Of a DNA stretch of 55,145 nucleotides, positions 1 to 55,145 are shown one piece after another. The notes beneath the pieces were generated by a model. The model made no database searches and was not told where the DNA came from. It saw only the letters and a list, made by a program, of their open reading frames with translations. Numbering within the stretch: the first letter of the stretch is position 1; each line of letters begins with the position of its first letter. The translations under genes were made by a program, and so were the position numbers. Origin of the DNA: Deltaproteobacteria bacterium (GTDB lineage Bacteria > Myxococcota_C > UBA6777); the NCBI GenBank assembly GCA_002731275.1, contig PCBK01000157.1, positions 1 to 55,145 of the forward strand, given 5' to 3'.

Positions 1-292
1 AAAACGCACCTCAAGGGCGTTCAGTACTTCATCTTTATAAAGCAAAATCGCACCTTTGTCAACACCAGTGATGCTTTTTTGTCACTTTTTCACCTTTTTC
101 CTCTCACCCCTGATAAAAATATGGCATATTGTCTACTTTTCACCCACAAAAAACCTATCTCAGTCCCCTCTTCTTCCTCTTCAACCAAAACCCACAAAAA
201 ATCCCCCTCCCCCAAAATCATCCCAAAGCGAAGCGTAAAAAAACAACCCCGAAGGGGTTCAACAGAGGGGGAAAGCAAGCGAAGCGCGCTTG

Positions 293-454
293 GGGGGCAT
301 TCATGTCCCCCGATAGCCCTAAACCAAACATCGCGGCGACAATGCGCCAGTTTCTAGAGGCGTGGGGGCATTCATGTCCCCCGATAGCCCTAAACCAACC
401 CCCTCAAAAAAACCCTATCAGTTGTATTCACGTCCCCCGATAGCCCAAAACCAA
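293..454. repeat. CRISPR-like or REP-like repeats beside cas6
   Basis: Two identical 35-base units (293-327 and 364-398) begin GGGGGCATTCATGTCCCCC, a 5-bp stem with a 9-base loop, and end GATAGCCCTAAACCAA. The 36 bases between them are unrelated, so the period is 71, as in a CRISPR with repeats and spacers of about 35. A third copy (about 426-454) keeps only the 3' part with changes and lies 56 bases after the second, so it is decayed. The repeat does not resemble that of the array at 28.4 kb. The position just past the 3' end of cas6 favours a CRISPR remnant, but a REP-type intergenic repeat is also possible. Bases 1-292 hold no convincing gene. Confidence 0.5.
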
Positions 455-466
455 ACCCAAAAAACA

Positions 467-1492
467 TCATAGACTCATACGAATCGAACCATCAGATACA
501 TGCTCAGGGATGACTCCCCTACGCTCATCAGTGGTGGAGTCCACCAAACGATATGAACCAAGCCCCTGTGCGGTGCTCTTGCCAGCGTGAAGCAGCTGCC
601 CAACCTGCAAAAGTGGCCATAACTCCGCAATCGCATCACCTTCCCACACAATATCTCCCCTCAAACCTCCCAACCATACCTCGCGTCGCTGCCTTCCGCT
701 CGACCTCTTCTGATCAAAGATCCTTAGCTCCGAAGACCTCACCCCAACCGTCGACGCACGCTCCAACAAACCGCGAAAGTCAACATCCAACTCCACACCA
801 CAATGGAACGCCAGAACGGATGATAATCGTGACAACAAACTACGCACGAATGCTCGAAACGAAAGCTCCCTCAGCAACTTCTTCTTCTCTTCAATACGAA
901 GCGGCGTCTCAAACCGGACATGACATTCACGACTCACAGATGACGGTGCCTCAAACAATGAATCCGCCTCACACCCCCTCAAGGACACAAACTGCCTGTC
1001 TTCATGATGCCACAACAACGTCCCCAACGCCGGACCAAGAGACTCTCGCACCTCCAAAAGTTGGAAGGGAATCCATCTCCCCTTCCGACCAAGTCCACGC
1101 TCAGCCATCCACTCGACTGCCGCCACAATGTGAGGCATATAGTCCAGACCACGCCCAAACAACGTCATCGAAAAATACAAATCATCCCCCCTCTTCCAAT
1201 CACCATCGTGAAAAGGAGGTGGGATCAAAACAAATGGATGTGGAAGAAATTGGTTCTTCCGCAAACGCTTGGTCTCTTCGGAGACAGGTGTCTCAAATAG
1301 ATAGACATAGGCACAAGGAGAAGCCAGCTCACAACGCTTTTTATCCTCACAACGTCTCGGACACCCTGCTCGCAATAACGCATGACCAAACGCCCCACGG
1401 ATCACTGGTCCCAAAAATCTTGGCATAGCTCCACTTCCCAGCGCTCGCAAACGAAATGTCATACGACCAACACGTAGCTTATCTAATGAATA
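467..1492 (-). CDS. cas6: Cas6-family CRISPR RNA processing endoribonuclease
   Basis: Cas6 cuts the CRISPR precursor transcript inside each repeat, leaving a short repeat-derived 5' tag on each crRNA. The 341-residue length fits the family. A cysteine cluster (C45, C49, C55, C61) followed by an aromatic YVYLFE stretch is typical of the PF10040-like branch, and the C-terminus carries a glycine-rich loop (HAGKSTAQGLGSY, about 302-314), the RAMP signature. I chose the ATG at 1492 because AAGGAGGAGCG precedes it; a longer frame to 1522 lacks a ribosome site. No other cas gene is visible in the window. The gene lies next to degenerate repeats (293-454) and 27 kb from the main array. The catalytic residues of this branch are poorly conserved and I did not assign them. 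Confidence 0.8.
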   Translation of the reverse strand, partial: YSLDKLRVGRMTFRLRALGSGAMPRFLGPVIRGAFGHALLRAGCPRRCEDKKRCELASPCAYVYLFETPVSEETKRLRKNQFLPHPFVLIPPPFHDGDWKRGDDLYFSMTLFGRGLDYMPHIVAAVEWMAERGLGRKGRWIPFQLLEVRESLGPALGTLLWHHEDRQFVSLRGCEADSLFEAPSSVSRECHVRFETPLRIEEKKKLLRELSFRAFVRSLLSRLSSVLAFHCGVELDVDFRGLLERASTVGVRSSELRIFDQKRSSGRQRREVWLGGLRGDIVWEGDAIAELWPLLQVGQLLHAGKSTAQGLGSYRLVDSTTDERRGVIPEHVSDGSIRMSL

Positions 1493-2091
1493 CATTCGCT
1501 CCTCCTTGTATATGTTTCTCAAAGTCTCACATACTCAAAACGAAAAATGACCTCCAATCTGACAAATAACGATAGCAAGTGATCACCAACAGGCAACAAA
1601 CACTCCTTTAAACTTTTACGAACACACAAAATAAACCACATCTTGACCTAATAAACAAGCTCAAAACAACAAAACCAGCTTACTCCCTCACATGGTAGGA
1701 CAATACATCACAAAAAAGTTTGTCAGATCTGTTCCGCGCCGTTCGTTTTCATGTATTTGACTCAAAAAAACACATGAAAAATAAAGAGAAAAAAGTCGAA
1801 CTCATTCACTGCACGACGCGTAAAACATACCACAAGCCACAAAGGCTCAGTCCAAAAGAGGTCATCCAACGGGAAGAAGACAACACACAAAAGAAAGCAT
1901 GTCGCAGAGCATCAGGCAAGACACAACAAAGAGTCTTTGGGTCGCTCCCAATCACAAAACACAACACCCTGAATATCCGACATCATCGACACATACCTCT
2001 TCCTACAAGCTTCTTTTTTGAAAAAATACAAGCGAAGTGGAAGGTTCGTCTCCCCAACCATCGTCTTACCTATACAAGCAAGGAGGACACG
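1493..2091. other. Intergenic region, no gene seen
   Basis: This gap of about 600 bases lies between divergently oriented cas6 and the small plus-strand genes. It is A- and C-rich. An open frame runs through its second half, but only as an upstream extension of the zinc-ribbon gene at 2092, where the first good ribosome site lies. Promoters for both directions presumably sit here. I see no clear -35/-10 pair or dyad to place them. Confidence 0.4.
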
Positions 2092-2310
2092 ATGATGGTT
2101 GGAAAACAAAAAGAACCCATGAGGAAACGACAACACAAGACACAGAATAAGTACCTCTGTGTTGCATGCCAACAACGACGTGCGATCTGTAAAACACCCA
2201 AGGGGTATCGATTCCTCCCAGATCACAGACTCTGTTATAGCTGTTACGAATCCGTGATGTCTTCGGCATTCGCGAAACAAAAGTCATCGAGTCCCAAAAA
2301 CAATAAGTAA
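2092..2310 (+). CDS. Small cysteine-rich (zinc-ribbon-like) protein
   Basis: This 72-residue basic protein has a CVAC pair at 23-26 and a CYSC pair at 48-51, spaced like a zinc ribbon, and lysine-rich ends. Binding of zinc and nucleic acid is plausible but inferred. The start at 2092 follows AAGGAGGACACG; the frame is open upstream for 124 codons without a comparable site. Its stop overlaps the ATG at 2310 (TAATG), and the LRAT-like gene follows, so the two are probably co-transcribed. It may be a small regulator of the accessory block. I do not recognise a named family. Confidence 0.6.
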   Translation: MMVGKQKEPMRKRQHKTQNKYLCVACQQRRAICKTPKGYRFLPDHRLCYSCYESVMSSAFAKQKSSSPKNNK

Positions 2311-2363
2311 TGGTTTCCCCAATCAACTTTTTTACTTGGAATCGCCTAAGGAGCATCATCACT

Positions 2364-2786
2364 ATGCGACATCATACACTCGACATGGAAGTAGGTTCAC
2401 ATCTCAGCGTCAGACGTACGGGATATTCACACCACGGGATCTACATCGGCCGTGGAATGGTCATCCACTTCACAGGTGATAAAGGTGCCTCAGCCTTCAT
2501 TAAGAAAGAGACCCTTCAGGACTTTCTATATGGTGGAACACTCAAAATCATCAGACACCGTAACCCCAAATACACTCCCCAAGAGGTCGTCGCACGTGCC
2601 TACTCCAAACTTGGACAGAAACAGGGGGAGTACAACTTGCTGTTCGACAATTGTGAGCACTTCGCCAACTGGTGCATCGAAGGCAAACATATCAGCCACC
2701 AAGCCAACACAGGCTTGGGCATCGCACTCGGTTCAGCCGCAGGTATCGCTATCATGATCCTGACAGGTGGACGCATCCGAATGTAA
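2364..2786 (+). CDS. LRAT/NlpC-P60-like cysteine hydrolase or acyltransferase
   Basis: The 140-residue protein has the LRAT (NC domain) layout. GSHLSVRR and YSHHGIYIG (histidines 23/24) come near the N-terminus, VIHF (H35) follows, and the NCEHF motif carries the likely nucleophile C97. LRAT-like members move acyl groups or hydrolyse thioester, amide or ester bonds by a Cys-His mechanism. A C-terminal hydrophobic segment (about 117-135) could anchor it in a membrane. I chose 2364 because AAGGAG lies ten bases upstream; the ATG at 2310 would add 18 residues. It follows the zinc-ribbon gene. A role in envelope lipid modification or superinfection exclusion is possible but unproven. Confidence 0.7.
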   Translation: MRHHTLDMEVGSHLSVRRTGYSHHGIYIGRGMVIHFTGDKGASAFIKKETLQDFLYGGTLKIIRHRNPKYTPQEVVARAYSKLGQKQGEYNLLFDNCEHFANWCIEGKHISHQANTGLGIALGSAAGIAIMILTGGRIRM

Positions 2787-2845
2787 CGCATAAGGCGACT
2801 CACAAAAAATACAGACAACGAAACGCACACAAAAGGAGCATACAC

Positions 2846-3208
2846 ATGAAGCCTAACAAACCATCTAGAGGAGAAATCATGACATTTGAAAAACCATCCC
2901 AACGACATCGTACACAACAGACAGCGATGACTGTGTTCCAAGACGCCTCACAGATCGTCGAATCCGTCAGCAACGCCTACACTGCGCACCAACAACGAAG
3001 AGCTGTCGAAGAAGAATGTGCCACACGCCGAGACGAAGCTCGATACGCGCTCGAAACACAACGTGAGCGCTCACATGCAAACTTGCGTATGTCTTCCGAC
3101 ATTCGGGATATGTACAAGCAAACAGATGATCCCGAGACACAACGCACACTTGCAAATGCCCTCTACGCACTTATCAAGGGTGATGAGTTCGGTAAAAAAG
3201 ACCGTTAA
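2846..3208 (+). CDS. Hypothetical charged helical protein
   Basis: This protein of about 120 residues is rich in Arg, Glu and Ala and predicted mainly helical, with no membrane segment or signal peptide. Two starts have good ribosome sites. The ATG at 2846 follows AAAAGGAGCATACAC; the ATG at 2879 follows GAGGAGAAATC. I give the longer form. The stop codon sits in the loop of a perfect 8-bp hairpin (3199-3217, AGACCGTT-AAG-AACGGTCT). A T run begins 14 bases past it, so this may end transcription weakly. It lies between the LRAT-like gene and another small coiled-coil gene. Function unknown. Confidence 0.55.
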   Translation: MKPNKPSRGEIMTFEKPSQRHRTQQTAMTVFQDASQIVESVSNAYTAHQQRRAVEEECATRRDEARYALETQRERSHANLRMSSDIRDMYKQTDDPETQRTLANALYALIKGDEFGKKDR

Positions 3209-3283
3209 GAACGGTCTGTTCACACATTCCTTTTTTGTATTCGCTCGTCTCTCGTCCTCTGACATCACAAAAGGAGTCACAAT

Positions 3284-3583
3284 ATGTTACCAGTCCCTTT
3301 ACTTATCGGAATTGGCTTAGGTGTAAGCGCGTTCATCGCAAGCGCCAAGGATGGAGCGATAAAGTCCCAACAGAGGGAGCGTGAAGAGGCACAAAGACAG
3401 TATGATGCAGAGCTGAGGAGGCAGCAAGAATACGCTCGTTCTCACGTTATACAAGAACTGCAACAACGTGTTGAAGAGATCGACAGAATCCTCGAACGGC
3501 ACCCAAACCTGTCAAGAAGAGCACGTCGCAAACTCACAGATCTGGCTGATGATTGGTGGGAGCGTTCTCGCGTCGATTCGTAA
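3284..3583 (+). CDS. Small membrane-anchored coiled-coil protein
   Basis: The 99-residue protein begins with a hydrophobic segment (about 3-21, LPVPLLIGIGLGVSAFIA) that can serve as an anchor or uncleaved signal. A long charged helix rich in Gln, Glu and Arg follows. The ATG is preceded by AAAGGAGTCACAAT. This layout matches many small phage-encoded envelope proteins, but I recognise no family. It belongs to the same plus-strand series of small genes (2.1-4.2 kb), which probably act on or near the envelope. Confidence 0.6.
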   Translation: MLPVPLLIGIGLGVSAFIASAKDGAIKSQQREREEAQRQYDAELRRQQEYARSHVIQELQQRVEEIDRILERHPNLSRRARRKLTDLADDWWERSRVDS

Positions 3584-3604
3584 ACCAACTCCCTCTTGAG
3601 TGGT

Positions 3605-3704
3605 CCTCTCGCGAAAAGGGCATACAACATTGAGGTCGGACACAAGGCCCGACCCTACCGATAAAACATGCAACATTATACTCATGCGCTTACTTCGCGA
3701 GAGG
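3605..3704. promoter_or_regulatory. Long inverted repeat enclosing a second hairpin
   Basis: CCTCTCGCGAA at 3605-3615 is repeated inverted as TTCGCGAGAGG at 3694-3704, a perfect 11-bp match across 78 bases. Inside it a shorter hairpin pairs GGTCGG with CCGACC (about 3634-3653), followed by a TATACT that could be a -10 element. The structure lies between two small genes in the same direction, so it could be a nested RNA structure controlling the gene at 3768, or an operator pair. Confidence 0.5.
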
Positions 3705-3767
3705 AGCGCTTACAGGTTTCCCAAAAGGTTCTTGACATCATTCTATTTGACATGAGGAGCTCCCACA

Positions 3768-4190
3768 ATGGTCGTTCGATTTGTATCCCAACACCCAGCC
3801 ATCATCGCAAGCAACGTCGCGCGAGAGCTTTTCGAAGCCCTCAGCGACATCTATGTGGAGTTTGAACGCACAAAAAGATACAAGGCTGAGTTGGCGTCAG
3901 CGCTCTTTGAGTTCGAGTGTGCGCTTGAACAATTCCTGTTGTGCATCAAGTCTAACACTGCGCAAGTTGAGATCATCTGTGACATGCTCATGTCGACACC
4001 TCCAGGCGAAACACAAGACATTCTTGTCGCAAGCCTGCTCTCCATACGCAACCAAGAAGACAACTATTTTGAAGAACGACGTTCACCAAGATTTGAAGAA
4101 CGACGTTCACCAAGATTTGCAAGTCGCCGCTCTGAGAGAGCTGACAATCGACGTTCACCAAGATCTAGAAGAAGCCGTTCTGCGAGATGA
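3768..4190 (+). CDS. Protein with five C-terminal RS-type octapeptide repeats
   Basis: This 140-residue protein has a helical N-terminal part (1-100) with no recognised family and a tail of five 8-residue repeats. These begin FEERRSPR twice and degrade to FASRRSER, ADNRRSPR and SRRSRSAR. In DNA they are five 24-base tandem units (4068-4187), the first two identical. The tail is strongly basic and rich in Arg-Ser pairs, suiting RNA or DNA binding. GAGGAGCTCCCACA precedes the ATG. The repeats can vary in number by slippage. It is the last gene of plus-strand block A. Function unknown. Confidence 0.65.
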   Translation: MVVRFVSQHPAIIASNVARELFEALSDIYVEFERTKRYKAELASALFEFECALEQFLLCIKSNTAQVEIICDMLMSTPPGETQDILVASLLSIRNQEDNYFEERRSPRFEERRSPRFASRRSERADNRRSPRSRRSRSAR

Positions 4191-4228
4191 GCTAATATTG
4201 TGAGGATGTAAAAAGAGGGGAGAGAAAG

Positions 4229-4300
4229 TGACCGGGGAGGGACTTGAACTCTCTGGAGGCGTTTTGAAAAAATACCGCCAACGTTGAACAATCTCACACC
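4229..4300 (-). other. tRNA 3'-end-like sequence (possible attachment site)
   Basis: On the minus strand, GAGAGTTCAAGTCCCTC fits a tRNA T arm (one mismatch), and CCCGGTCA after it fits the 3' acceptor strand plus discriminator base. CCA is not encoded. No matching 5' acceptor strand (GACCGGG) or D arm is found upstream, so this is at most the 3' part of a tRNA. Phages often integrate at tRNA 3' ends, and this spot separates the lysis genes from the accessory block and cas6. The rest of 4191-4470 holds nothing I recognise. Confidence 0.3.
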
Positions 4301-4470
4301 ACCGAAACAAAAGCAGCCTCTCCGTTGTGATTGATTGCTATCCATTGCTATCTGTTTCTCTTCACAATCGTACACATTTCGTACACCAGGAAATCTGTTT
4401 GTGGGATGTGATCAAAGCACCACACAAAACGAACCAAACACTTGAAGCTAAAGATTCGACGATATCGAAA

Positions 4471-14926: not shown

Positions 14927-15104
14927 AACAGCCGCAGCATTTGATTTTTGGCTGTGGCCATTTGAAGCTGAACCCTCCGGCTCATTGGTCACAAGACATT
15001 TTACCGAAGAATAAAGCTGACATTGTTGTAGCAAACATAATCTGCATATTCTTCCACAAAATGTCAAGTCTTCAAGGTGAGGGAAGCAATGAGGAGCGAA
15101 CATC
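14927..15104 (+). promoter_or_regulatory. Conserved leader of the 50-residue orphan gene, copy 1
   Basis: This stretch shares ordered blocks with 39790-39965: AACAGCCGCA at the start, GGCCATTTG after 29 bases (23 in the other copy), and GTCAAGTC, then CAAGGTGAGGGAA before the ATG. GCCGCA can pair with TGTGGC in the first part; the other copy pairs GCCG with CGGC. A structured 5' leader or promoter region carried along with the gene is likely. I see no known riboswitch. Confidence 0.5.
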
Positions 15105-15257
15105 ATGAGTCGCAAATCCCCAAGTGCGCCCGAAGGTTACGAGTATATCTACGTCACTCATTATCGACATGCCAAGTCAGGCAAAGTGATATACGCACGG
15201 AACTACGGGAAAAAAGTCTTTAGGCTTTGTGTCCCCGTAAACCGAACAGAGAAGTGA
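15105..15257 (+). CDS. Orphan 50-residue basic protein, copy 1
   Basis: The protein reads MSRKSPSAPEGYEYIYVTHY, then continues with a lysine- and tyrosine-rich beta-like segment ending VFRLCVPVNRTEK. It is a clear paralogue of the product at 39966-40121: the APEGYEYI start, VTHY, HAK-GK, YA, YGKKVF and VP positions agree. A GAGGAG-type site lies before the ATG. Both copies are followed by a hairpin terminator and then by nuclease-like genes, and both have the conserved leader. Function unknown; a small nucleic-acid-binding or inhibitor protein is possible. Confidence 0.65.
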   Translation: MSRKSPSAPEGYEYIYVTHYRHAKSGKVIYARNYGKKVFRLCVPVNRTEK

Positions 15258-19238: not shown

Positions 19239-20039
19239 CTAGTTGTCCGGGAACTTCAGCTTATTCCCTTTCACAGAGACTGGCATATCAGGGAATGGCG
19301 GTGTAGGAGCGGGTGGACTCGTCGGGCCTGATGGTGAGGGGTGAACGTGACTAGCAGCCCATGTCTTGAGCTGTGTCCACAATTCGTTCATGCGTTCATA
19401 TATCGCAGGATGCACAGCCCCATTGCCCACTGTAAGCTCGGCATCTGCATCTTTATTCTGCAAAGTCATCCCAAGACCACCATCAATCCCCAAGACAATG
19501 GACTTGTCGGGCTTCAACTCGATGGATGTCCCTGATGGCGAACCATCAATGATCTGCGAGATCTTGATGGACTCCCCCCCTGGCTTTTGGGAGATGCGAA
19601 AGAGCGTTGCACCAGGCTCTTGTGGCGCATTCACTTCATCAGGATCACCTGTGTATCGCAGCTCCAGAAAGGGCTCGTTGGCATCTTGCGCTTGCACGAG
19701 CTCCCAGCGGCTTGAAAAAGAGAGCTGCTTTTGTGGAAAAGCATCTTCGATATCAGTGGGGAGTGTGTCTTCGAGAGGAAGAAAACCAGTGTACACGAGA
19801 TGGTCTTCGTCTTCTTCACCAAGCTCGGCGCGCTCTGTTGTCACCCATACTGCGAGCTTCTCAGCGTATTTCTTCAACCATAAATCATCAGGTGGAGAGA
19901 AGCGACCAAAGGCATAGCAAGGCCGTGCCCAGCGAGGCTCTCCCTTGTACACGACTTGAAGCCAGCCCTTCTTTGAACTCTCAGGTTGGGTGTCTTGTTG
20001 GCCAGACTCTGGCTGGATGATACGGGCAAGTGTCAGCAT
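19239..20039 (-). CDS. Baseplate spike protein (gpV/gp5-like)
   Basis: This protein of about 266 residues has an OB-like N-terminal domain, a middle beta domain ending with repeated short strands (ISQIIDGSPSGTSIEL and IVLGIDGGLGMTL), and a proline-rich C-terminus that could meet a tip protein. This is the layout of the trimeric central spike that punctures the outer membrane. A GGAG site suits the ATG at 20039; a start four codons upstream overlaps it. It begins the tail segment left of block C and is followed by the gp25-like gene. No PAAR protein is visible. Confidence 0.65.
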   Translation of the reverse strand: MLTLARIIQPESGQQDTQPESSKKGWLQVVYKGEPRWARPCYAFGRFSPPDDLWLKKYAEKLAVWVTTERAELGEEDEDHLVYTGFLPLEDTLPTDIEDAFPQKQLSFSSRWELVQAQDANEPFLELRYTGDPDEVNAPQEPGATLFRISQKPGGESIKISQIIDGSPSGTSIELKPDKSIVLGIDGGLGMTLQNKDADAELTVGNGAVHPAIYERMNELWTQLKTWAASHVHPSPSGPTSPPAPTPPFPDMPVSVKGNKLKFPDN

Positions 20040-20239
20040 CACAAACTCCATAACGCATTGTTTCGCTCTGGCTTGTTACTGGTAATGAATTAAATCTGTT
20101 GCGGTTTTCTTGATTTTAAAAAAGCATGTGGCTACTTTGTTGGATATGTGGTTGAACGCATGACACGTTAAGACACTGAACATACGTACACTGACTTTCG
20201 TAAATCATGAAATCATTCAATCGCAATTGCGAGGACAAC

Positions 20240-21025
20240 ATGGATCAACAAAAAGTAGACAAAATCATCCAGTGTGCATTGGCTATAGCTTCCCAGGCTG
20301 ACGACTTCAGAGATCGTGAATTGGGACCAATTCACCTGATCAAATACGTTTACCTTGCGGATTTGGCTTACGCACAATCTCATGATGGCGAAACATACAC
20401 AGGAATCCCTTGGCAATTCTATCACTTTGGTCCATGGGATTTGGGGCTATTCCAGCATTTGGATGATGCAACTTCTCTCAACCACATCCAAAGAAGAGAA
20501 ATCCAAAGCGAATATGACAAAGACTTTACCCGATGGCGCTATACCAACCGCCACGATGCTAGCATTGATGAAGAAGCATTCAGATCGCGCCTACCTGTTT
20601 CCATTTTTTCAACATTGAAAAACAACATAAAGCGTTTTGGACAAGATACGTACGAACTCTTGGATTTTGTTTACAAAACATCACCAATGTTGAACGCAGC
20701 TCCTGAAGAGTTTTTATCCTTTGACTTCAAAAAAACAACTCCCCTTCCATCCAGTCAAGAGGAAAAGCTCACTGCCAAGCAACAAAAAAAGAGAAAAGCC
20801 ACCCTCAAAAAAATCCAGGAAAAGCTCGCAGAGAAGAGAAAAAAACCTCGCCGAAAAAGGCTAAAAAAGGCTGCCGAACCAGTGTACGATGAGGTTTTTG
20901 AGAAAGGTGTTGAGTGGCTTGATAGCCTTGCAGGGTCGCCAGTAGAGGAGCATTCTGGCAAAGTGCTTTTCGATGAAAATGTGTGGAAATCTCCAAGCAG
21001 AAGGAATACAGATGACGACTGCTAA
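20240..21025 (+). CDS. Panacea-domain (SocA-like) antitoxin
   Basis: The 261-residue protein has a Panacea (DUF4065, SocA-like) domain. It reads IHLIKYVYLADLAYAQ, then IPWQFYHFGPWDLGLF, the helical core with the tyrosine-glycine-proline turn. A lysine- and arginine-rich C-terminal region (about 185-235) is unusual and may touch DNA or the toxin. Panacea domains neutralise many unrelated toxins. GCGAGGACAAC precedes ATG 20240; an earlier ATG at 20207 lacks one. Its end overlaps the next gene by 14 bases, the usual antitoxin-toxin coupling. Confidence 0.75.
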   Translation: MDQQKVDKIIQCALAIASQADDFRDRELGPIHLIKYVYLADLAYAQSHDGETYTGIPWQFYHFGPWDLGLFQHLDDATSLNHIQRREIQSEYDKDFTRWRYTNRHDASIDEEAFRSRLPVSIFSTLKNNIKRFGQDTYELLDFVYKTSPMLNAAPEEFLSFDFKKTTPLPSSQEEKLTAKQQKKRKATLKKIQEKLAEKRKKPRRKRLKKAAEPVYDEVFEKGVEWLDSLAGSPVEEHSGKVLFDENVWKSPSRRNTDDDC

Positions 21026-28354: not shown

Positions 28355-28371
28355 TCCCCTAAAGAAGGCTG

Positions 28372-28951
28372 ACTTTAATGGGGCCGCCCTTTTTACGGGG
28401 CGGAGAGAGCCTTGAGCATCCAAACCTCCAAGGCGAGCGAGAGGCTGGCTTCAATGGGGCCGCCCCTTTTTATCGGGCGGAGAGGCTCGTGCGCAAGGCT
28501 ACCGTTCGGAGGCGACCGTGAAAGCTTCAATGGGGCCGCCCTTTTTACGAGGCGGAGAGTCCTTCAAGATGCTTGTGGTCCTTTGGGTCTTTCAGCCTGC
28601 TTCAATGGGGCCGCCCTTTTTACGGGGCGGAGAGCAAGTGATCAGTAACTTAAAGGATCTTTTGATTCACCGTGGCTTCAATGGGGCCGCCCTTTTTATC
28701 GGGCGGAGAGAGAGTAAAACGGCCTCATTCACACTTATCGATTTTTTACCGACGGAACTGCTTCAATGGGGCCGCCCTTTTTATCGGGCGGAGAGCTACC
28801 GGGAATATTGTGGAGAGCGGTAATGCACATACTAGCTTCAATGGGGCCGCCCTTTTTATCGGGCGGAGAGCAGCAAAACACACAACCGACCCCCCTGTCT
28901 TCCTAGAAGAGATAGCTTCAATGGGGCCGCCCTTTTTTATCGGGCGGAGAG
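28372..28951 (-). CRISPR. CRISPR array, eight 36-base repeats, seven spacers
   Basis: Repeats begin at 28372, 28448, 28524, 28599, 28675, 28760, 28835 and 28915. Most are 36 bases; the second and last are 37. Written on the plus strand they begin GCTTCAATGGGGCCGCCC and end TATCGGGCGGAGAG, with a CCGCCC/GGGCGG stem. Spacers are 40, 39, 39, 40, 49, 39 and 44 bases and are unrelated to one another. The minus strand ends ATTGAAGC, the usual 5' tag of mature crRNA, so I infer minus-strand transcription. The leftmost repeat is the most altered, as expected for the end far from the leader. No adaptation or effector gene is adjacent. Confidence 0.93.
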
Positions 28952-29037
28952 GGTTCACTTCCAAGTGTACACACCCAAAAGACTTTTTTCATCATATGCG
29001 AGCGTCTCACTTTTGCAACCCTTTTCAGCACTCCTCC
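28952..29037 (-). promoter_or_regulatory. Probable CRISPR leader with promoter, copy A
   Basis: The 86 bases right of the array match 34009-34094 without gaps at about 73 positions. On the minus strand TTGCAA (29018-29013) and TATGAT (28996-28991) stand 16 bases apart and are identical in both copies, while the bases between vary. This supports a promoter firing into the array. Some of this region could also hold an integration motif. Confidence 0.65.
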
Positions 29038-29095
29038 AATGCAAAATAAGCCACACACACAACACCTATCCTCCTACAAAAAAAAAAAGGAAAAA

Positions 29096-29401
29096 TCATT
29101 TTGCGAGCGTCTCCAGAGTTTTGCTCACCACGTCGACGCTCGCACTTTCTTCTGTTCTTGTCATCCATGGATGTTTAGCTAGCTGGATTGCTTCATCAAT
29201 GTAGGTGTTCAGATCACCATTTTCGAGGAGTATCTTGTACCATTTTGGTGTCTTCGTATGGTTTGGATCGGCTCTCCCTGCTCGTTGTTGAGAAGGGGTT
29301 CCCCACATACTGATCATAATCTCTCTCGTCACGGGATGACAGGCAACAAGACATCGCACAAAATCATCCCAGAGAGGACTAGGCTGCGTATCTTGCGCCA
29401 T
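29096..29401 (-). CDS. Hypothetical protein, second gene of a two-gene unit
   Basis: This 101-residue soluble protein has a helical pattern with several tryptophans (PLWDDFVRCLVACHP, MWGTPSQQ, KWYKILLENG) and no signal or membrane segment. GGGAGGTGAGTC precedes the ATG, and it overlaps the end of the upstream 131-residue gene by 23 bases, so they are translated together. It lies between the CRISPR leader and the CI-type repressor. Small protein pairs next to a repressor are often lysogenic-conversion genes. Function unknown. Confidence 0.6.
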   Translation of the reverse strand: MAQDTQPSPLWDDFVRCLVACHPVTREIMISMWGTPSQQRAGRADPNHTKTPKWYKILLENGDLNTYIDEAIQLAKHPWMTRTEESASVDVVSKTLETLAK

Positions 29402-30716: not shown

Positions 30717-31466
30717 ATGAACGTTGTCAAAAAACAAGAAGATTCCGTTTTTGTCGAGCATGTCAGCTTTCTTGACACAGGCAAGGAGTTTGAGATCATC
30801 ACCCAAGGCGACTTCAAAGGAGTTGCCCTTCGGCCCATCGTGGAAGATATGGGGCTCGATTGGAGTGCGCAACTCAAGAAGATCAAAAACCACCCAATCT
30901 TGAGCAAAGGTGTGGTCTTTATTGCCACACCTTCAAGTGGAGGGACACAAGAAACAGCATGTCTCAGCATTCGTCGCTTGCCATTTTACTTGGCCACGCT
31001 CAACACAAAACGGATCAAGAACCGAAGCATCCGTAATCGAGTTGAGCTGTATCAAGAATATGCTGCCGATGTAATCTTTGAAGCGACCTATGGACAGGCA
31101 TTCCTGGAAGCTGATGTTCTTCAATTTCAACTCGAACAACAACGCAAAATCGTTGCCGAGCAATCCATCGAACTCCAGCATCTCCGCCTGCAGGGCTCCA
31201 ATCTGAAGGTGCAGGGCGAACTGTTCGCCAATGCCGACATCCTTCCTGCACGGGCAAAGGTGCGGGGATTACTTGCGGCATACAGTGGCAAGGGGATCTC
31301 GATGGCGGCGATCTGTCGGCACTTGAAAGAAGAGACGGGATTTGACGCTCACAAGATACGCAAAAAGATCCAAGCGATGGGCGGAAAGGCCACCCTGCTG
31401 AATGTGATCACCGCGCACAAGTACGACGAGAAGGCACTAGGGATCCTTTGTCGTATGCTTCGGTAG
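30717..31466 (+). CDS. Phage antirepressor (P22 AR N-terminal family)
   Basis: The 249-residue protein has an N-terminal antirepressor domain (about 28-125): GVALRPIVEDMGLDWSAQLK, then LSIRRLPFYLATLNTKRIK, the family core. A coiled coil (about 130-165) and a C-terminal domain with AKVRGLLAAYSGKGISMAAI follow. Such proteins bind and inactivate CI-type repressors. It follows the Cro-like gene in the rightward transcript, 94 bases on. It could free the switch when another phage or damage signal turns it on, which suits a CI without autocleavage. Confidence 0.8.
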   Translation: MNVVKKQEDSVFVEHVSFLDTGKEFEIITQGDFKGVALRPIVEDMGLDWSAQLKKIKNHPILSKGVVFIATPSSGGTQETACLSIRRLPFYLATLNTKRIKNRSIRNRVELYQEYAADVIFEATYGQAFLEADVLQFQLEQQRKIVAEQSIELQHLRLQGSNLKVQGELFANADILPARAKVRGLLAAYSGKGISMAAICRHLKEETGFDAHKIRKKIQAMGGKATLLNVITAHKYDEKALGILCRMLR

Positions 31467-31535
31467 TTCTTTCAGCCTCCAGTCCTTCCTTTTCCCCCTC
31501 CATGCTGCAAGCCCGCCACCATCAAAACAACCAAA

Positions 31536-32351
31536 GTGGATATCATCAACCTCCCAGGCAGACCCCCGGCAATGCTGGATCGAGACGTCGCAGAACTATA
31601 CGAGACAACCACCGGTCAGACTAACAGGGCTGCCAAGCGAAATCCTCGACGCTTTCCGGAGCCAAGCTATCGGTTCAAGGCGGTCAAGTCAGAACTATGC
31701 CAAATTGGCACAGTCCTTCAAAAGCGAGGACTTACCATCTCGGGACCGCATCCTTGGCTATACACGCAACACGGTTGTAACGCGTTAGCCTTTGTTCTCA
31801 ATTCCGACATTGCGATCGAACGCTCTGTCCAGATTGTTGAAACGTTCACAGCACTGGAACAAGGAAGGCTTGAAGAGTACATCGCCGAGAGAGTCGCGCA
31901 AGCGACTAGGGGTGATGAGATCAAACGACTCCTCCTTTTGGGTGCGCCTGCGGATTGGAGTGAGCGATTCCCTCGCGAATTCTGGGTCGAGCTTGCTCGC
32001 TTGCGACATTGGCACAAATACGATCCAGACAAGCACAACACGCCACAAGACGCAAAGTGGTGGGTCTCATGGACGATCTATCAACGTCTACCAAGCAATG
32101 TCTATGACGCGCTCAAAGAGATGAACCCGGCTGATGAGAACGGCAATCGCTCGCATAAACATCATCAATTTATGCGAACGAGTGACGGTGACGAGGTGTT
32201 GAAAAATTTGGTCAGAGAAGCACTTCGCTTCATGCGTACATCGATAGACTGGTCGGATTTTGCTTGGCGGTGGGATCAATTGAGGCCTCGGCCAGGACAA
32301 CAGTTGAAAATGTTCCCAGCGCCAAAGCCAAGCCTGCAACCCGCCGTATAA
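31536..32351 (+). CDS. ORF6N-P63C domain phage protein
   Basis: The 271-residue protein has an ORF6N-like N-terminal domain (about 1-95): LPGRPPAMLDRDVAELYETT and RFPEPSYRFKAVKSELCQ. A P63C domain (about 135-245) follows, with FPREFWVELARLRHWHKYDP, SNVYDALKEMNPADENGN, HKHHQFM and LVREALRFMRTSIDWSDF. These domains recur in phage regulators and antirepressors. The start used is GTG 31536; no strong ribosome site is visible, so the true start may differ slightly. It closes the early rightward transcript after the antirepressor. Its target is unknown. Confidence 0.75.
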   Translation: MDIINLPGRPPAMLDRDVAELYETTTGQTNRAAKRNPRRFPEPSYRFKAVKSELCQIGTVLQKRGLTISGPHPWLYTQHGCNALAFVLNSDIAIERSVQIVETFTALEQGRLEEYIAERVAQATRGDEIKRLLLLGAPADWSERFPREFWVELARLRHWHKYDPDKHNTPQDAKWWVSWTIYQRLPSNVYDALKEMNPADENGNRSHKHHQFMRTSDGDEVLKNLVREALRFMRTSIDWSDFAWRWDQLRPRPGQQLKMFPAPKPSLQPAV

Positions 32352-32724: not shown

Positions 32725-32835
32725 ACTTCAATAGGGCCGACCTGTTTACTGAACGAAAGGATAAAGTGTAAGCCTTACACCTTGGGTGGAGCATGCAGTA
32801 CTTCAATCGGACCGCCCTATTTTAGGGGCAGAAAG
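32725..32835 (-). CRISPR. Two diverged CRISPR repeats with one 40-base spacer
   Basis: Units at 32725-32759 and 32800-32835 begin ACTTCAATAGGGCCGACC and ACTTCAATCGGACCGCCC and end near GAAAG, resembling the repeat of the array at 28.4 kb. The spacer between them is 40 bases, the size seen there. The minus strand of the second ends GATTGAAGT. They lie 10 bases past the stop codon of a membrane operon whose other end meets a third decayed repeat and a leader copy. Confidence 0.7.
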
Positions 32836-32845
32836 ACAGATGGTG

Positions 32846-33976: not shown

Positions 33977-34094
33977 GTTCAATGGTCTTTTTTTTTTCGG
34001 ATGGAAAGGGATAACTTCCAAGCATTTACACCCAAAAGACTTTTTCCATCATATGTGAGTGTTTCACTTTTGCAACCCTTTTCTGTGCTCCTCC
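33977..34094 (-). CRISPR. Decayed repeat plus leader-like flank, copy B
   Basis: On the plus strand GTTCAATGGTC followed by a T run and CGGATGGAAAG (33977-34008) matches the ends of the main repeat; the minus strand ends CCATTGAAC. Bases 34009-34094 match the flank of the main array at about 73 of 86 positions, with TTGCAA (34075-34070) and TATGAT (34053-34048) conserved at 16-base spacing. It is the leader end of a CRISPR locus whose other repeats now lie at 32725-32835. Confidence 0.6.
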
Positions 34095-34761: not shown

Positions 34762-36162
34762 ATGACATCAAGTGCGTATATGGCATTCGCTGTTTGCATG
34801 TTTGCAATAGCTGGCTTGCTCTTGCTTTTTTTCAGGAGCAGAGAAACGATTACTGAGAAAGATGAAATTCTCTCTCAACAACACGAGCTCCTCGTCCAAA
34901 TGCAACAAGCCTTAAAGAAGTACGGTCCTATCATTGATTTAGAACAGGAGCAACAACACCTTACCCAACACAACGCATCAATCAAGACAAAGATCAAGCA
35001 AGAACAAGCAAGATGGAATAGAGAACATCACCAACTCTTGGAGAAGCAACGTCAGCTACAAGAAAGCGTTTCTCTCTTGGAGGAAGAGGAATACATCCAA
35101 TCATTCGGCTTGTACAAACATCGTTATGATTTTGGTTCATCCAATCGCTACAAATTAAAACTTACGGAGGTGAGGGACGAACAAAAGAGGCTTATCAAAA
35201 ACGGAACAGCTGCTCGTTGCAATACAGATTGGCACGTTGGTGAGAGCCGTAAAAAGGGGAAGAAGCTCACAAACGACTTTCTCAAATTGCTATTAAGGGC
35301 CTTTAATGGGGAGTGTGACGTAGCCATCTCCAAGGTGAAATACAACAATGTCGATAGCACGGAGAAAAGGATCGAAAAATCCTGGGAAGCCTTGAACAAG
35401 CTCGGACAGCACTACCATACTGAAATCACGAGAGAGTACGTACACCTCAAACTTCAAGAGTTGTTCTTGGTCCACGAATACCAAGAGAAGAAACAGGAGG
35501 AAAAAGAAGAGGCCAAAAGGATCAAGGAAGAAATGCGAGAGGAAGAGAAGCTCCTCAAGGCCCTCGAAAAAGAAGAGAAGCAAGCCCAAAAAGAAGAGGA
35601 ACGATATATCAAGGCCCTCGAAAAGGCTAGAGCTGAGGCAAGAAAAGCAAGCCAAGACAAAATGAATGCGTACGATGCGAAGATAAGGCAACTCGAAGTT
35701 CTCTTGGCCGAAGCCGCGGAGAGAAAAGAGAGAGCTGTATCTCAAGCCCAGCTCACAAAGTCGGGCTTTGTCTACGTCATTTCGAATGTCGGATCTTTTG
35801 GTGAAAACGTCTTCAAGATCGGATTGACACGACGCCTCGAACCCAACGATCGAGTGAGAGAGCTGGGAGGCGCATCAGTACCATTCCCCTTTGATGTCCA
35901 CGCATTCATCTACTCCCATGATGCTCCTGGACTTGAGAACAAAATACACAAAGCACTTCACAACTACAGGATCAACTGGGTGAACAACCGCAAAGAGTTC
36001 TTTCGAGTTCCTCTCAAAACAATTGAGCAGGTTGTGTACCAGCATCAAAATGACATCGCAAAGCGCTTTGAATTTGAATACTTCCCCCAGGCTGAGGAGT
36101 TCAGAAAGTCCGAATCCGCAAGGTTGGCCGAAGCACAAACCACGGTGCAGGGTGCCTTTTGA
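34762..36162 (+). CDS. DUF4041-T5orf172 (GIY-YIG superfamily) protein
   Basis: The 466-residue protein has an N-terminal membrane helix (about 7-25), a coiled coil (35-110), a DUF4041-like domain (about 115-265), a second coiled coil (265-325), and a C-terminal T5orf172 domain (about 335-425). The latter reads GFVYVISN, VFKIGLTRRLEPNDRVREL and LENKIHKAL, a variant GIY-YIG fold with the arginine and glutamate in place. Such fusions are common in phages and islands; DNA binding or cutting at the membrane, for example against incoming DNA, is plausible. Activity is unproven. No strong ribosome site precedes the ATG. Confidence 0.75.
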   Translation: MTSSAYMAFAVCMFAIAGLLLLFFRSRETITEKDEILSQQHELLVQMQQALKKYGPIIDLEQEQQHLTQHNASIKTKIKQEQARWNREHHQLLEKQRQLQESVSLLEEEEYIQSFGLYKHRYDFGSSNRYKLKLTEVRDEQKRLIKNGTAARCNTDWHVGESRKKGKKLTNDFLKLLLRAFNGECDVAISKVKYNNVDSTEKRIEKSWEALNKLGQHYHTEITREYVHLKLQELFLVHEYQEKKQEEKEEAKRIKEEMREEEKLLKALEKEEKQAQKEEERYIKALEKARAEARKASQDKMNAYDAKIRQLEVLLAEAAERKERAVSQAQLTKSGFVYVISNVGSFGENVFKIGLTRRLEPNDRVRELGGASVPFPFDVHAFIYSHDAPGLENKIHKALHNYRINWVNNRKEFFRVPLKTIEQVVYQHQNDIAKRFEFEYFPQAEEFRKSESARLAEAQTTVQGAF

Positions 36163-36476: not shown

Positions 36477-37445
36477 ATGTTGTCACAAAAAAAAGAAGAT
36501 ATCAACCAAATACAAACCCTTTTGAACCAAAATTCCGATTTTGGCCCAATGCGTGCAAAAGCTTTGGCAGAAAAATGGGCACAGAACTCTCCAACGGACC
36601 CATACGCTAGGTTGGCTTTGGGCCTATGTTATGGGGTCGCGAAAAAATATGACAAGGCATTGAGTGAATTCAGAAAAGCCCGGAACTTTTCTCCCGACCT
36701 GTACTTGGCTTGGCTAAACGAATCAAAAACACTCATTTTCCAAGGGAGATATGATGAATCCCTTGAGATTATGAAACAAGGTTTGCAACTTGCACCAACA
36801 TCCCTTGATGAAGCAAAAGGAAAAAGGACCATGGCCCTTGCTCTCGTAGAGGCTGGTTCCTTTGATGGGGCTGTGTCAGTTCTTCAAGATGTCATAGCTT
36901 TGGGTATGAAAGATGTAATGTTTGGCGCAGTATTGTTGGCTCAAGGCAAAATTTTGGACTCTTTGGAGGCACTCTCGGAATCACTGCATTCACCTGCTAT
37001 ACCTGATATTTTGGTAGGTGGTTCTCATAATGAAGTTTGTCCCACCAACCATATGCTTGATTTCATCTCCGAAAAGTTTCTTTCTCTTTTGAGAATGGGC
37101 TTCACACCAAAACAAATTCAACCACTACTGACAACTCCACCTACAAACTACAAGCCTGGGACTTTCGAGTATGTGAAGTGGTGGAAAAATGAAACAAGTG
37201 GGGAGAGTTGGGAAAAAGGGCTCCAAGAATCCTTGGAAAACCCCATAGAGGATCGCTATGGGATAACCCACGAAAAGATGGAGAAAGTTTGGCAAGATGC
37301 AATGATGCTTTTGGAAGAAAAGCATCATAATCCAAACGAATACGTGTCCAAGATTTCAGAAAGGATGATGGAAATGCTGGAGGAAAAACCAAACAACGAA
37401 TTTCCTCGTTCGTTGATCGAAAAAGGAACCCCAAAAAATGACTAG
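36477..37445 (+). CDS. TPR-repeat protein paired with Fic
   Basis: This protein of about 322 residues contains TPR-like helical repeats (about 30-175). The first half shows ALGLCYGVAKKYDKALSEFR, NESKTLIFQGRYDESLEIMK and LALVEAGSFDGAVSVLQ. The second half is helical without clear repeats. ATG 36477 follows AAGGA weakly, and TTG 36405 is an alternative. Its stop overlaps the Fic start by eight bases, so the two are one operon. It probably binds the Fic protein or its target, acting as antitoxin or adaptor. No classic antitoxin motif is seen in it. Confidence 0.65.
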   Translation: MLSQKKEDINQIQTLLNQNSDFGPMRAKALAEKWAQNSPTDPYARLALGLCYGVAKKYDKALSEFRKARNFSPDLYLAWLNESKTLIFQGRYDESLEIMKQGLQLAPTSLDEAKGKRTMALALVEAGSFDGAVSVLQDVIALGMKDVMFGAVLLAQGKILDSLEALSESLHSPAIPDILVGGSHNEVCPTNHMLDFISEKFLSLLRMGFTPKQIQPLLTTPPTNYKPGTFEYVKWWKNETSGESWEKGLQESLENPIEDRYGITHEKMEKVWQDAMMLLEEKHHNPNEYVSKISERMMEMLEEKPNNEFPRSLIEKGTPKND

Positions 37446-38076
37446 CTGTCCTGATTGGTTTGATGATGCAGCAGAACGAAAAACCCCAGAATTCTCAAAT
37501 AGAGTCTACTCTGCATTGGTTCATGCACGAACCAATTCCATGTCCTCAATTCCTGAAAATGCAGACATCATGAGTTGGCACAAACAGATTTTCATGGGAA
37601 TTGCACCTCTTGAAATTTATGCAGGAAACTACAGACAAGATACACCGAAGGAACCCTGCTTGGCGGTCAACGTCTCCGTTGGCAACGTGCCAGGCGCTTC
37701 ATACACAATCGTTCCGACAGTGATGGTGAACTTCTTCAACGACCTAGGCAGAGAAATGAAATCACTAGAACTCCAGTGGACAGAGATTTCAGCAGTTGAA
37801 AAGCTGAGAAGAGTTTCGAGCCTAGTGGCTGTCGCTGTAGGTGAATTCATACGCATCCATCCGTTTGTAAACGGAAATGGGCGAATGTCCAGAACCCTAT
37901 GGAATGTCCTTCTTCACCGCATGGGTTTTCCTGCGGAAGTAAGTGTTATTAACAGGCCTGATCCTCCGTACAACAACCTGATGAAACAAGCAATGCAAGG
38001 GAACTACGCACCTTTGGTCGTGTACCTTTTCGACACTATCGCAACCACCCCCCCCAAAACCAACTTACCAAGTTAG
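37438..38076 (+). CDS. Fic-domain AMP transferase
   Basis: This 212-residue protein has the full Fic motif HPFVNGNGRMSR (141-152), with catalytic H141 and the phosphate-binding NGNGR loop. An N-terminal helix carries SSIPEN (36-41), matching the (S/T)xxxE(G/N) inhibitory motif of class II Fic proteins, where the glutamate blocks ATP. Fic proteins transfer AMP to target proteins such as gyrase or GTPases. It overlaps the TPR gene by eight bases. Because inhibition is built in, the TPR partner may regulate rather than neutralise. Likely a toxin or defence effector. Confidence 0.88.
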   Translation: MTSCPDWFDDAAERKTPEFSNRVYSALVHARTNSMSSIPENADIMSWHKQIFMGIAPLEIYAGNYRQDTPKEPCLAVNVSVGNVPGASYTIVPTVMVNFFNDLGREMKSLELQWTEISAVEKLRRVSSLVAVAVGEFIRIHPFVNGNGRMSRTLWNVLLHRMGFPAEVSVINRPDPPYNNLMKQAMQGNYAPLVVYLFDTIATTPPKTNLPS

Positions 38077-39789: not shown

Positions 39790-39965
39790 AACAGCCGCAT
39801 CATTACGACTACGGCCATTTGGTCAAACCCTTCGTCCAAATAGTCGTACGATATCCAGATAAAGAACGTGACCTTAAAAACAGTGGTATGTTGGAGAGGG
39901 TACACATTTTTTCTCTGGGTGTCAAGTCAAACAAGGTGAGGGAATGCAGAAAGGAGTGCTCTATC
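39790..39965 (+). promoter_or_regulatory. Conserved leader of the 50-residue orphan gene, copy 2
   Basis: Ordered blocks match 14927-15104: AACAGCCGCA (39790-39799), GGCCATTTG (39813-39821), then GTCAAGTC and CAAGGTGAGGGAA close to the ATG. GCCG pairs with CGGC around 39794-39816, where copy 1 pairs GCCGCA with TGTGGC. Between the blocks the two copies differ, so the conserved parts are likely functional as promoter or RNA structure. Confidence 0.5.
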
Positions 39966-40121
39966 ATGAGTCACAAATACCCTCCTGCGCCCGAAGGATA
40001 TGAGTATATCTTCGTCACGCATTACAAGCATGCAAAGACAGGAAAAACACTCTACGCCAAACACTATGGGAAAAAGGTCTTTTGCCTTCTTGTCCCCATA
40101 GATAGGGCCTCGAAAGACTGA
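39966..40121 (+). CDS. Orphan 51-residue basic protein, copy 2
   Basis: The protein starts MSHKYPPAPEGYEYIFVTHY and ends VFCLLVPIDRASKD. It is a paralogue of the product at 15105-15257: most residues between APEGYEYI and YGKKVF agree. AAAGGAG lies near the ATG. It follows the sigma-like pair and precedes a terminator and an HNH gene, as copy 1 precedes a terminator and GIY-YIG genes. Function unknown. Confidence 0.65.
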   Translation: MSHKYPPAPEGYEYIFVTHYKHAKTGKTLYAKHYGKKVFCLLVPIDRASKD

Positions 40122-55089: not shown

Positions 55090-55120
55090 ATCAATATAAT
55101 CCTGTTATATTGATTGTCAA
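55090..55120 (-). promoter_or_regulatory. Promoter and palindromic operator at right end
   Basis: On the minus strand TTGACA (55120-55115) and TATATT (55098-55093) are 16 bases apart. ATCAATATAA (55090-55099) and TTATATTGAT (55105-55114) form a perfect 10-bp palindrome with a five-base loop, lying between the hexamers and over the -10. The gene at 54699-55061 is therefore probably repressed in some conditions. Confidence 0.75.
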
Positions 55121-55145
55121 AAAAAAAAAAAAAAAAAAAAAAAAA
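55119..55145. other. 27-base A run at window end
   Basis: Twenty-seven consecutive A close the window. It joins the -35 element directly. In a raw genome sequence this may be an assembly edge, padding or a true homopolymer. It gives no evidence for a phage end type. Confidence 0.5.

Follow-up and report, generated by a model that had tools for sequence, protein, structure and literature searches.

A lone cas6 gene at the edge of the contig

The window analyzed here, 55,145 bp in length, is an entire contig (C146) of a 10.75-Mb Myxococcota genome assembled in 200 contigs, with an estimated completeness of 94.65%. Near its left end lies an intact Cas6-family gene without internal stops (Table 1). 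Because an AGGAGG motif precedes the ATG at position 1495, this codon is the likely start, giving a product of 342 amino acids and a coding sequence that extends three bases beyond the interval 467-1492 delimited earlier; initiation at an upstream TTG (position 1522) would instead yield 351 amino acids. The product matches the Pfam family PF10040 (CRISPR_Cas6; E = 3.3e-14, 53.8 bits for a cut-off of 25) and, over nearly its full length (residues 15-327), the PADLOC Cas6 model PDLC01477 (E = 5.9e-84); the match to the NCBIfam equivalog TIGR01877 is weak (20.9 bits, under the cut-off of 58.65). By curated family model, the product is thus assigned to the Cas6 endoribonuclease family. The protein aligns end to end with its relatives and retains the conserved cysteines and the C-terminal HxGKxxxxGLG loop, in which H303, G305, K306, G311 and G313 (glycine-rich loop of the RAMP fold) are invariant across seven relatives. 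The AlphaFold model has a mean pLDDT of 55.9, too poor to judge the two-ferredoxin (RRM) fold.

Relatives of this Cas6 are encoded next to cmr operons, RT/PrimPol/Cas1 modules, csx1 or a cas10d-like gene, and Cas6 domains from Cas6-RT-Cas1 proteins are among the solved structures giving the best profile matches. These neighborhoods and structure matches mark the protein as a type III-associated Cas6. When a two-member Cas6 alignment was scanned over genome contigs, the sole match was a gene of Myxococcota MAG.451 (G002), which belongs to the same family as the present host.

The gene had been described in an earlier note, made from the sequence alone, as a stand-alone cas6 far from the arrays, and this description holds: 26.9 kb separate it from the main CRISPR array of the window. 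The same note regarded the repeats beside cas6 as decayed and unrelated to the arrays. They are indeed not CRISPR repeats; the 35-mer found three times at positions 293-454 belongs to dispersed host repeats that occur on many contigs, and the contig break at the left end of the window itself falls in a repeated element.

Table 1. Coordinates of the features identified in the window (dots, no strand assigned).
Feature	Position	Strand	Basis
Chromosomal DNA with dispersed host repeats	1..458	.	Copies on C47, C43, C143, C4, C84, C55 and many more contigs
cas6	467..1495	-	PF10040, PADLOC Cas6, AGGAGG before ATG
att core AGTGACCGGGGAGGGACTTGAAC, host/prophage boundary	4227..4249	.	Exact copy at C138:19755
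Left 51 kb of the ~70.5-kb contractile-tailed prophage, remainder likely on C138	4250..55145	.	Baseplate, tape measure, sheath and terminase matches; continuation in G193
Probable integrase arm-type site	4367..4386	.	19/20 match to C138:19688-19707
Prophage CRISPR array, 8 repeats and 7 spacers, distal repeat degenerate	28371..28952	- (crRNA strand)	Repeat also on C171 and C136
Leader of the prophage array	28953..29100	-	28930-29100 87% identical to C171:1568-1734
Two decayed repeats of the array's family	32726..32838	-	Same repeat family
Isolated second leader copy, without intact array, 5 kb away	33990..34094	-	84% identical to the array leader

cas6 lies outside a prophage inserted in a tRNA-Leu gene

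Two origins had been envisaged for cas6 in the earlier note: either a phage carries Cas6 plus arrays but no effector, as a minimal crRNA supply system, or, should the tRNA-like site at 4229 be an attachment site, cas6 is host DNA, for which a search for an att duplicate was advised. That search bears out the second. By sequence comparison the tRNA-like site is real, a duplicated 23-bp tRNA-Leu 3' end (AGTGACCGGGGAGGGACTTGAAC), of which an exact second copy lies at position 19755 of another contig of the same genome, C138, within an intact tRNA-Leu gene (anticodon TAA; tRNA-Leu(UAA)) and beginning 87 bp past the stop codon of an integrase gene. No further copy of the core was found in the window, even allowing three mismatches, and ARAGORN with default settings detected no tRNA gene there. 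Each core is accompanied on its phage side by a 20-bp arm-type sequence, and these paired sequences are probably integrase arm sites, judging from their placement. The sequence left of position 4227 is unlike the integrase-side sequence, which argues that it is chromosome rather than the phage's own att arm; a reading of the contig as a circular phage was rejected on the same observation. Joining both outer flanks reconstructs an empty site with an intact tRNA-Leu gene. The positions of the two cores thus delimit a prophage of ~70.5 kb, from position 4227 of the window to C138:19777, inserted in the 3' end of tRNA-Leu(UAA), and leave cas6 2.7 kb outside it. We therefore consider cas6, with high confidence, to be a chromosomal gene and not a phage gene, its location being well supported.

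It is correspondingly very improbable that cas6 is phage DNA forming, with the arrays, a minimal crRNA supply system. Prophage records in IMG/VR do contain the end of the contig bearing cas6, but both of the records found there represent this same prophage, and no cas6 relative was found among 50,697 phage records. Both the duplicated core beside the integrase and tRNA-Leu genes and the dissimilarity of the sequence left of it to the integrase-side arm speak against a phage origin, as do the dispersed host repeats that adjoin the gene. G+C content does not separate host from phage DNA.

Since tRNA sites collect islands, cas6 could also belong to a second mobile island that shares the tRNA-Leu site and separates the prophage from the core chromosome. 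Several small ORFs with no assigned function between cas6 and the att core would fit such an island, but no integrase was recognized among the ORFs at positions 1-4226, and neither the single att core of the window nor the host repeats beside cas6 favor it; we regard this as unlikely. The same flank holds an LRAT-domain gene (positions 2310-2786).

The prophage probably extends onto a second contig

The match of the window to baseplate, tape measure, tail sheath and terminase proteins indicates a contractile-tailed phage. Queries with the tail sheath and tape measure proteins for related phages returned only the same two IMG/VR prophage records. One of these, G193 (74,576 bp), corresponds to the window from position 90 onward (100% identity, both ends compared) and extends 19.5 kb rightward past its end, with genes coding for a RecD2-like helicase, a DUF3854 protein, a D12 DNA methylase and a terminal tyrosine integrase. 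This extension is carried by C138, which continues beyond the integrase gene into tRNA-Leu. A poly-A run (55118-55145) closes the window, and there G193 joins the window to C138 from position 121 onward; the first ~120 bp of C138 differ from this join (L072 (C138), 1-148; L065, about 450-480). From these sequences, one of the two assemblies is chimeric, wrong or variant at the poly-A join, and the link between C146 and C138 depends on G193. The two pieces nevertheless likely form a single prophage, given their complementary genes (structural on one, replication and integrase on the other), the att core common to both and the matching arm-type sites.

Accessory genes of the prophage (20207-21025, 30717-32351, 34762-36162 and 37438-38076) gave matches to SocA/Panacea (weak), P22_AR_N, ORF6N/P63C antirepressor-like, DUF4041/T5orf172 and Fic. 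A 138-bp sequence is also present twice, at 15102-15239 and 39963-40100, the two copies being 76% identical and 25 kb apart.

The prophage carries a CRISPR array in the host repeat format

The main array falls inside the att bounds. Read on the crRNA strand, its repeat is CTCTCCGCCCCGTAAAAAGGGCGGCCCCATTGAAGC or a near variant, 36 bp in length and ending in ATTGAAGC. The same repeat occurs in 68 copies on contig C171 and in 13 copies at the end of contig C136, and in no other array of the assembly; the C171 segment that resembles the prophage leader is itself the leader of that large host array. Spacers associated with the 36-bp repeat are mostly 33-45 bp long. When folded, the repeat leaves a 12-nt tail, so that its stem is not flush with the 8-nt tag; by contrast, in the repeat next to the G002 Cas6 the stem reaches the tag. 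Searches with the spacers tried yielded no target, and an apparent match on C178 was discarded as it spans the artificial junction of two concatenated spacers. The prophage array is genuine, with a degenerate distal repeat as in ordinary arrays and a host-like leader. The matches of the genome to PF10040, Cas10 and Cas1, the families considered here, are all outside the prophage.

CRISPR-Cas loci elsewhere in the host genome

PF10040 identified two genes in the genome, cas6 of the window and one on contig C79; a PF01881 search for further Cas6 proteins gave only a sub-threshold match (E = 0.3). The C79 gene is part of a type I-B locus comprising cas8b, cas7b, cas5b, cas3, cas6, a cas1 fragment and an array of a different repeat. 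No Cas1 match other than this fragment (L003, 10833-11171; 112 amino acids) was found in the genome, and spacer uptake may have been lost or may be encoded in DNA absent from the assembly.

Two type III effector loci are also present. On contig C122, cmr1-6 (type III-B) have one TIR-SAVED and one NucC gene as neighbors (L039, 4046-18544), with no cas6 or array within about 10 kb on each side. On contig C49, a type III-D locus contains cas10d, csx10-like, cas7-like and CARF-HEPN genes, and neither cas6 nor an array was found from there to the contig end; a strong match to the PD-T4-6 defense family adjoins this operon (L040, 13769-15565).

The C171 and C136 arrays are orphans; the ORFs scanned next to them include no cas genes. 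On its leader side the C136 array is cut off by the contig end, and its leader end is missing from the assembly. Given this and the completeness estimate, parts of the system may be absent from the data, and unseen cas genes may lie past the point where this array is cut off.

A possible role for the lone Cas6 in trans

Since the other Cas6 of the genome already has an array of its own in the type I-B locus, the simplest reading is that the lone enzyme processes the dispersed repeat family. The type III-B and III-D effectors lacking a nearby cas6 are what a trans-acting Cas6 would need. In the pathway that we favor, the lone type III-like Cas6 would cut pre-crRNA from the C171, C136 and prophage arrays in trans, and the resulting crRNAs, each bearing a ATTGAAGC tag, would then be loaded by the III-B and/or III-D effector; the prophage array would in this way use host processing and effector proteins. 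Cleavage of the repeat, specificity for it and effector loading are all predicted steps, and the pairing of this Cas6 with this repeat is reached by elimination for a repeat that also fits type I-G. We find it reasonably probable that the chromosomal cas6 beside the tRNA-Leu prophage serves the dispersed repeat family in trans; our confidence goes no further because of the fit of the 36-bp TTGAAGC repeat to type I-G and because of its 12-nt tail.

The dispersed arrays, including that of the prophage, may alternatively be type I-G arrays processed by Csb2, in which case the lone cas6 would serve a different type III locus, or be a relic of one, and would leave the prophage array untouched. Myxobacterial I-G repeats are 36 bp long, form a hairpin, end in -TTGAAGC and are scattered through the genome with mean spacers of 36-37 bp (PMC11237760), and the repeat length, the ATTGAAGC end and most of the spacer lengths observed here agree with this. 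Csb2 is predicted to contain Cas5- and Cas6-like domains (PMC11237760), so that it would be the expected I-G processing enzyme, with no Cas6 used. The loss of the C136 array at its leader side would also allow a cas operon to sit in the gap. Against these points, scanning of ORFs next to either host array revealed no cas genes, and the assembly contains no further array of the prophage repeat; moreover, no array would remain for the lone Cas6. We judge the type I-G reading to be possible, but doubtful.

A third explanation is that cas6 is a decaying remnant with no present function. No effector gene, adaptation gene or array lies in the 2.7 kb of visible host flank, and the sole cas1 match of the genome is a fragment. 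However, the full-length frame, the good ribosome-binding site and the intact conserved motifs do not suggest decay, and crRNA clients are present in the same genome. A functionless remnant is accordingly quite unlikely.

A further, tentative possibility is that a temperate phage with a leader-bearing array in the host repeat format draws on a host type III pathway with mutually unlinked cas6, effectors and arrays, its spacers arming the host effector against competing phages. Whether the prophage spacers use the host type III (or I-G) machinery can now be tested.

Comparison with known systems

The striking claim of a phage with its own Cas6 is replaced here by a host arrangement in which the enzyme, the effectors and the arrays of one repeat family are apparently unlinked. 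This is a known kind of biology: a real gene in an ordinary location on the host chromosome, with a plausible role. Among the papers searched, none used the phrases sought for a lone or in-trans cas6. Among the closest known systems are the Cas6 proteins of type III loci with RT/PrimPol/Cas1 modules; one relative, the G002 Cas6 (39% identity), belongs to the same PADLOC PDLC01477 group and has the same conserved motifs; it is encoded in a csx1-cas6-RT/PrimPol-cas1-array locus, whereas cas6 of the window stands alone.

Type III-B clusters without cas6 are common in myxobacteria (PMC11237760) and have been reported more widely too (PMC5576922). In the Marinomonas III-B system, crRNAs are processed by Cas6f (PMC5576922), and there, as here, the effector operon lacks cas6 and is unlinked to the arrays and the enzyme. 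The partner enzyme of Marinomonas belongs to a type I-F locus, while the candidate partner in this genome is a lone type III-like cas6 whose pairing we infer. The scattered I-G arrays of myxobacteria (PMC11237760) resemble the present ones in their 36-bp hairpin repeat ending in TTGAAGC and in the occurrence of several arrays genome-wide, but differ in that no I-G cas genes were seen here beside the C171 or C136 arrays.

Finally, the prophage array with its host-like leader offers a bacterial parallel to the mini-CRISPR arrays of archaeal viruses. Archaeal viruses are known to carry arrays whose leaders resemble those of their hosts, and bacteriophage mini-arrays were stated to be without leaders (PMC6858448), a point on which the present array departs. 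Virus-borne mini-arrays combine a host-like leader and repeats with no cas genes of the virus (PMC6858448); the leader and repeats described here are host-like too, and the genome's matches to PF10040, Cas10 and Cas1 lie outside the prophage. The present array differs in that the spacers tried gave no target and in being carried, with eight repeats and a leader, by a bacterial prophage.
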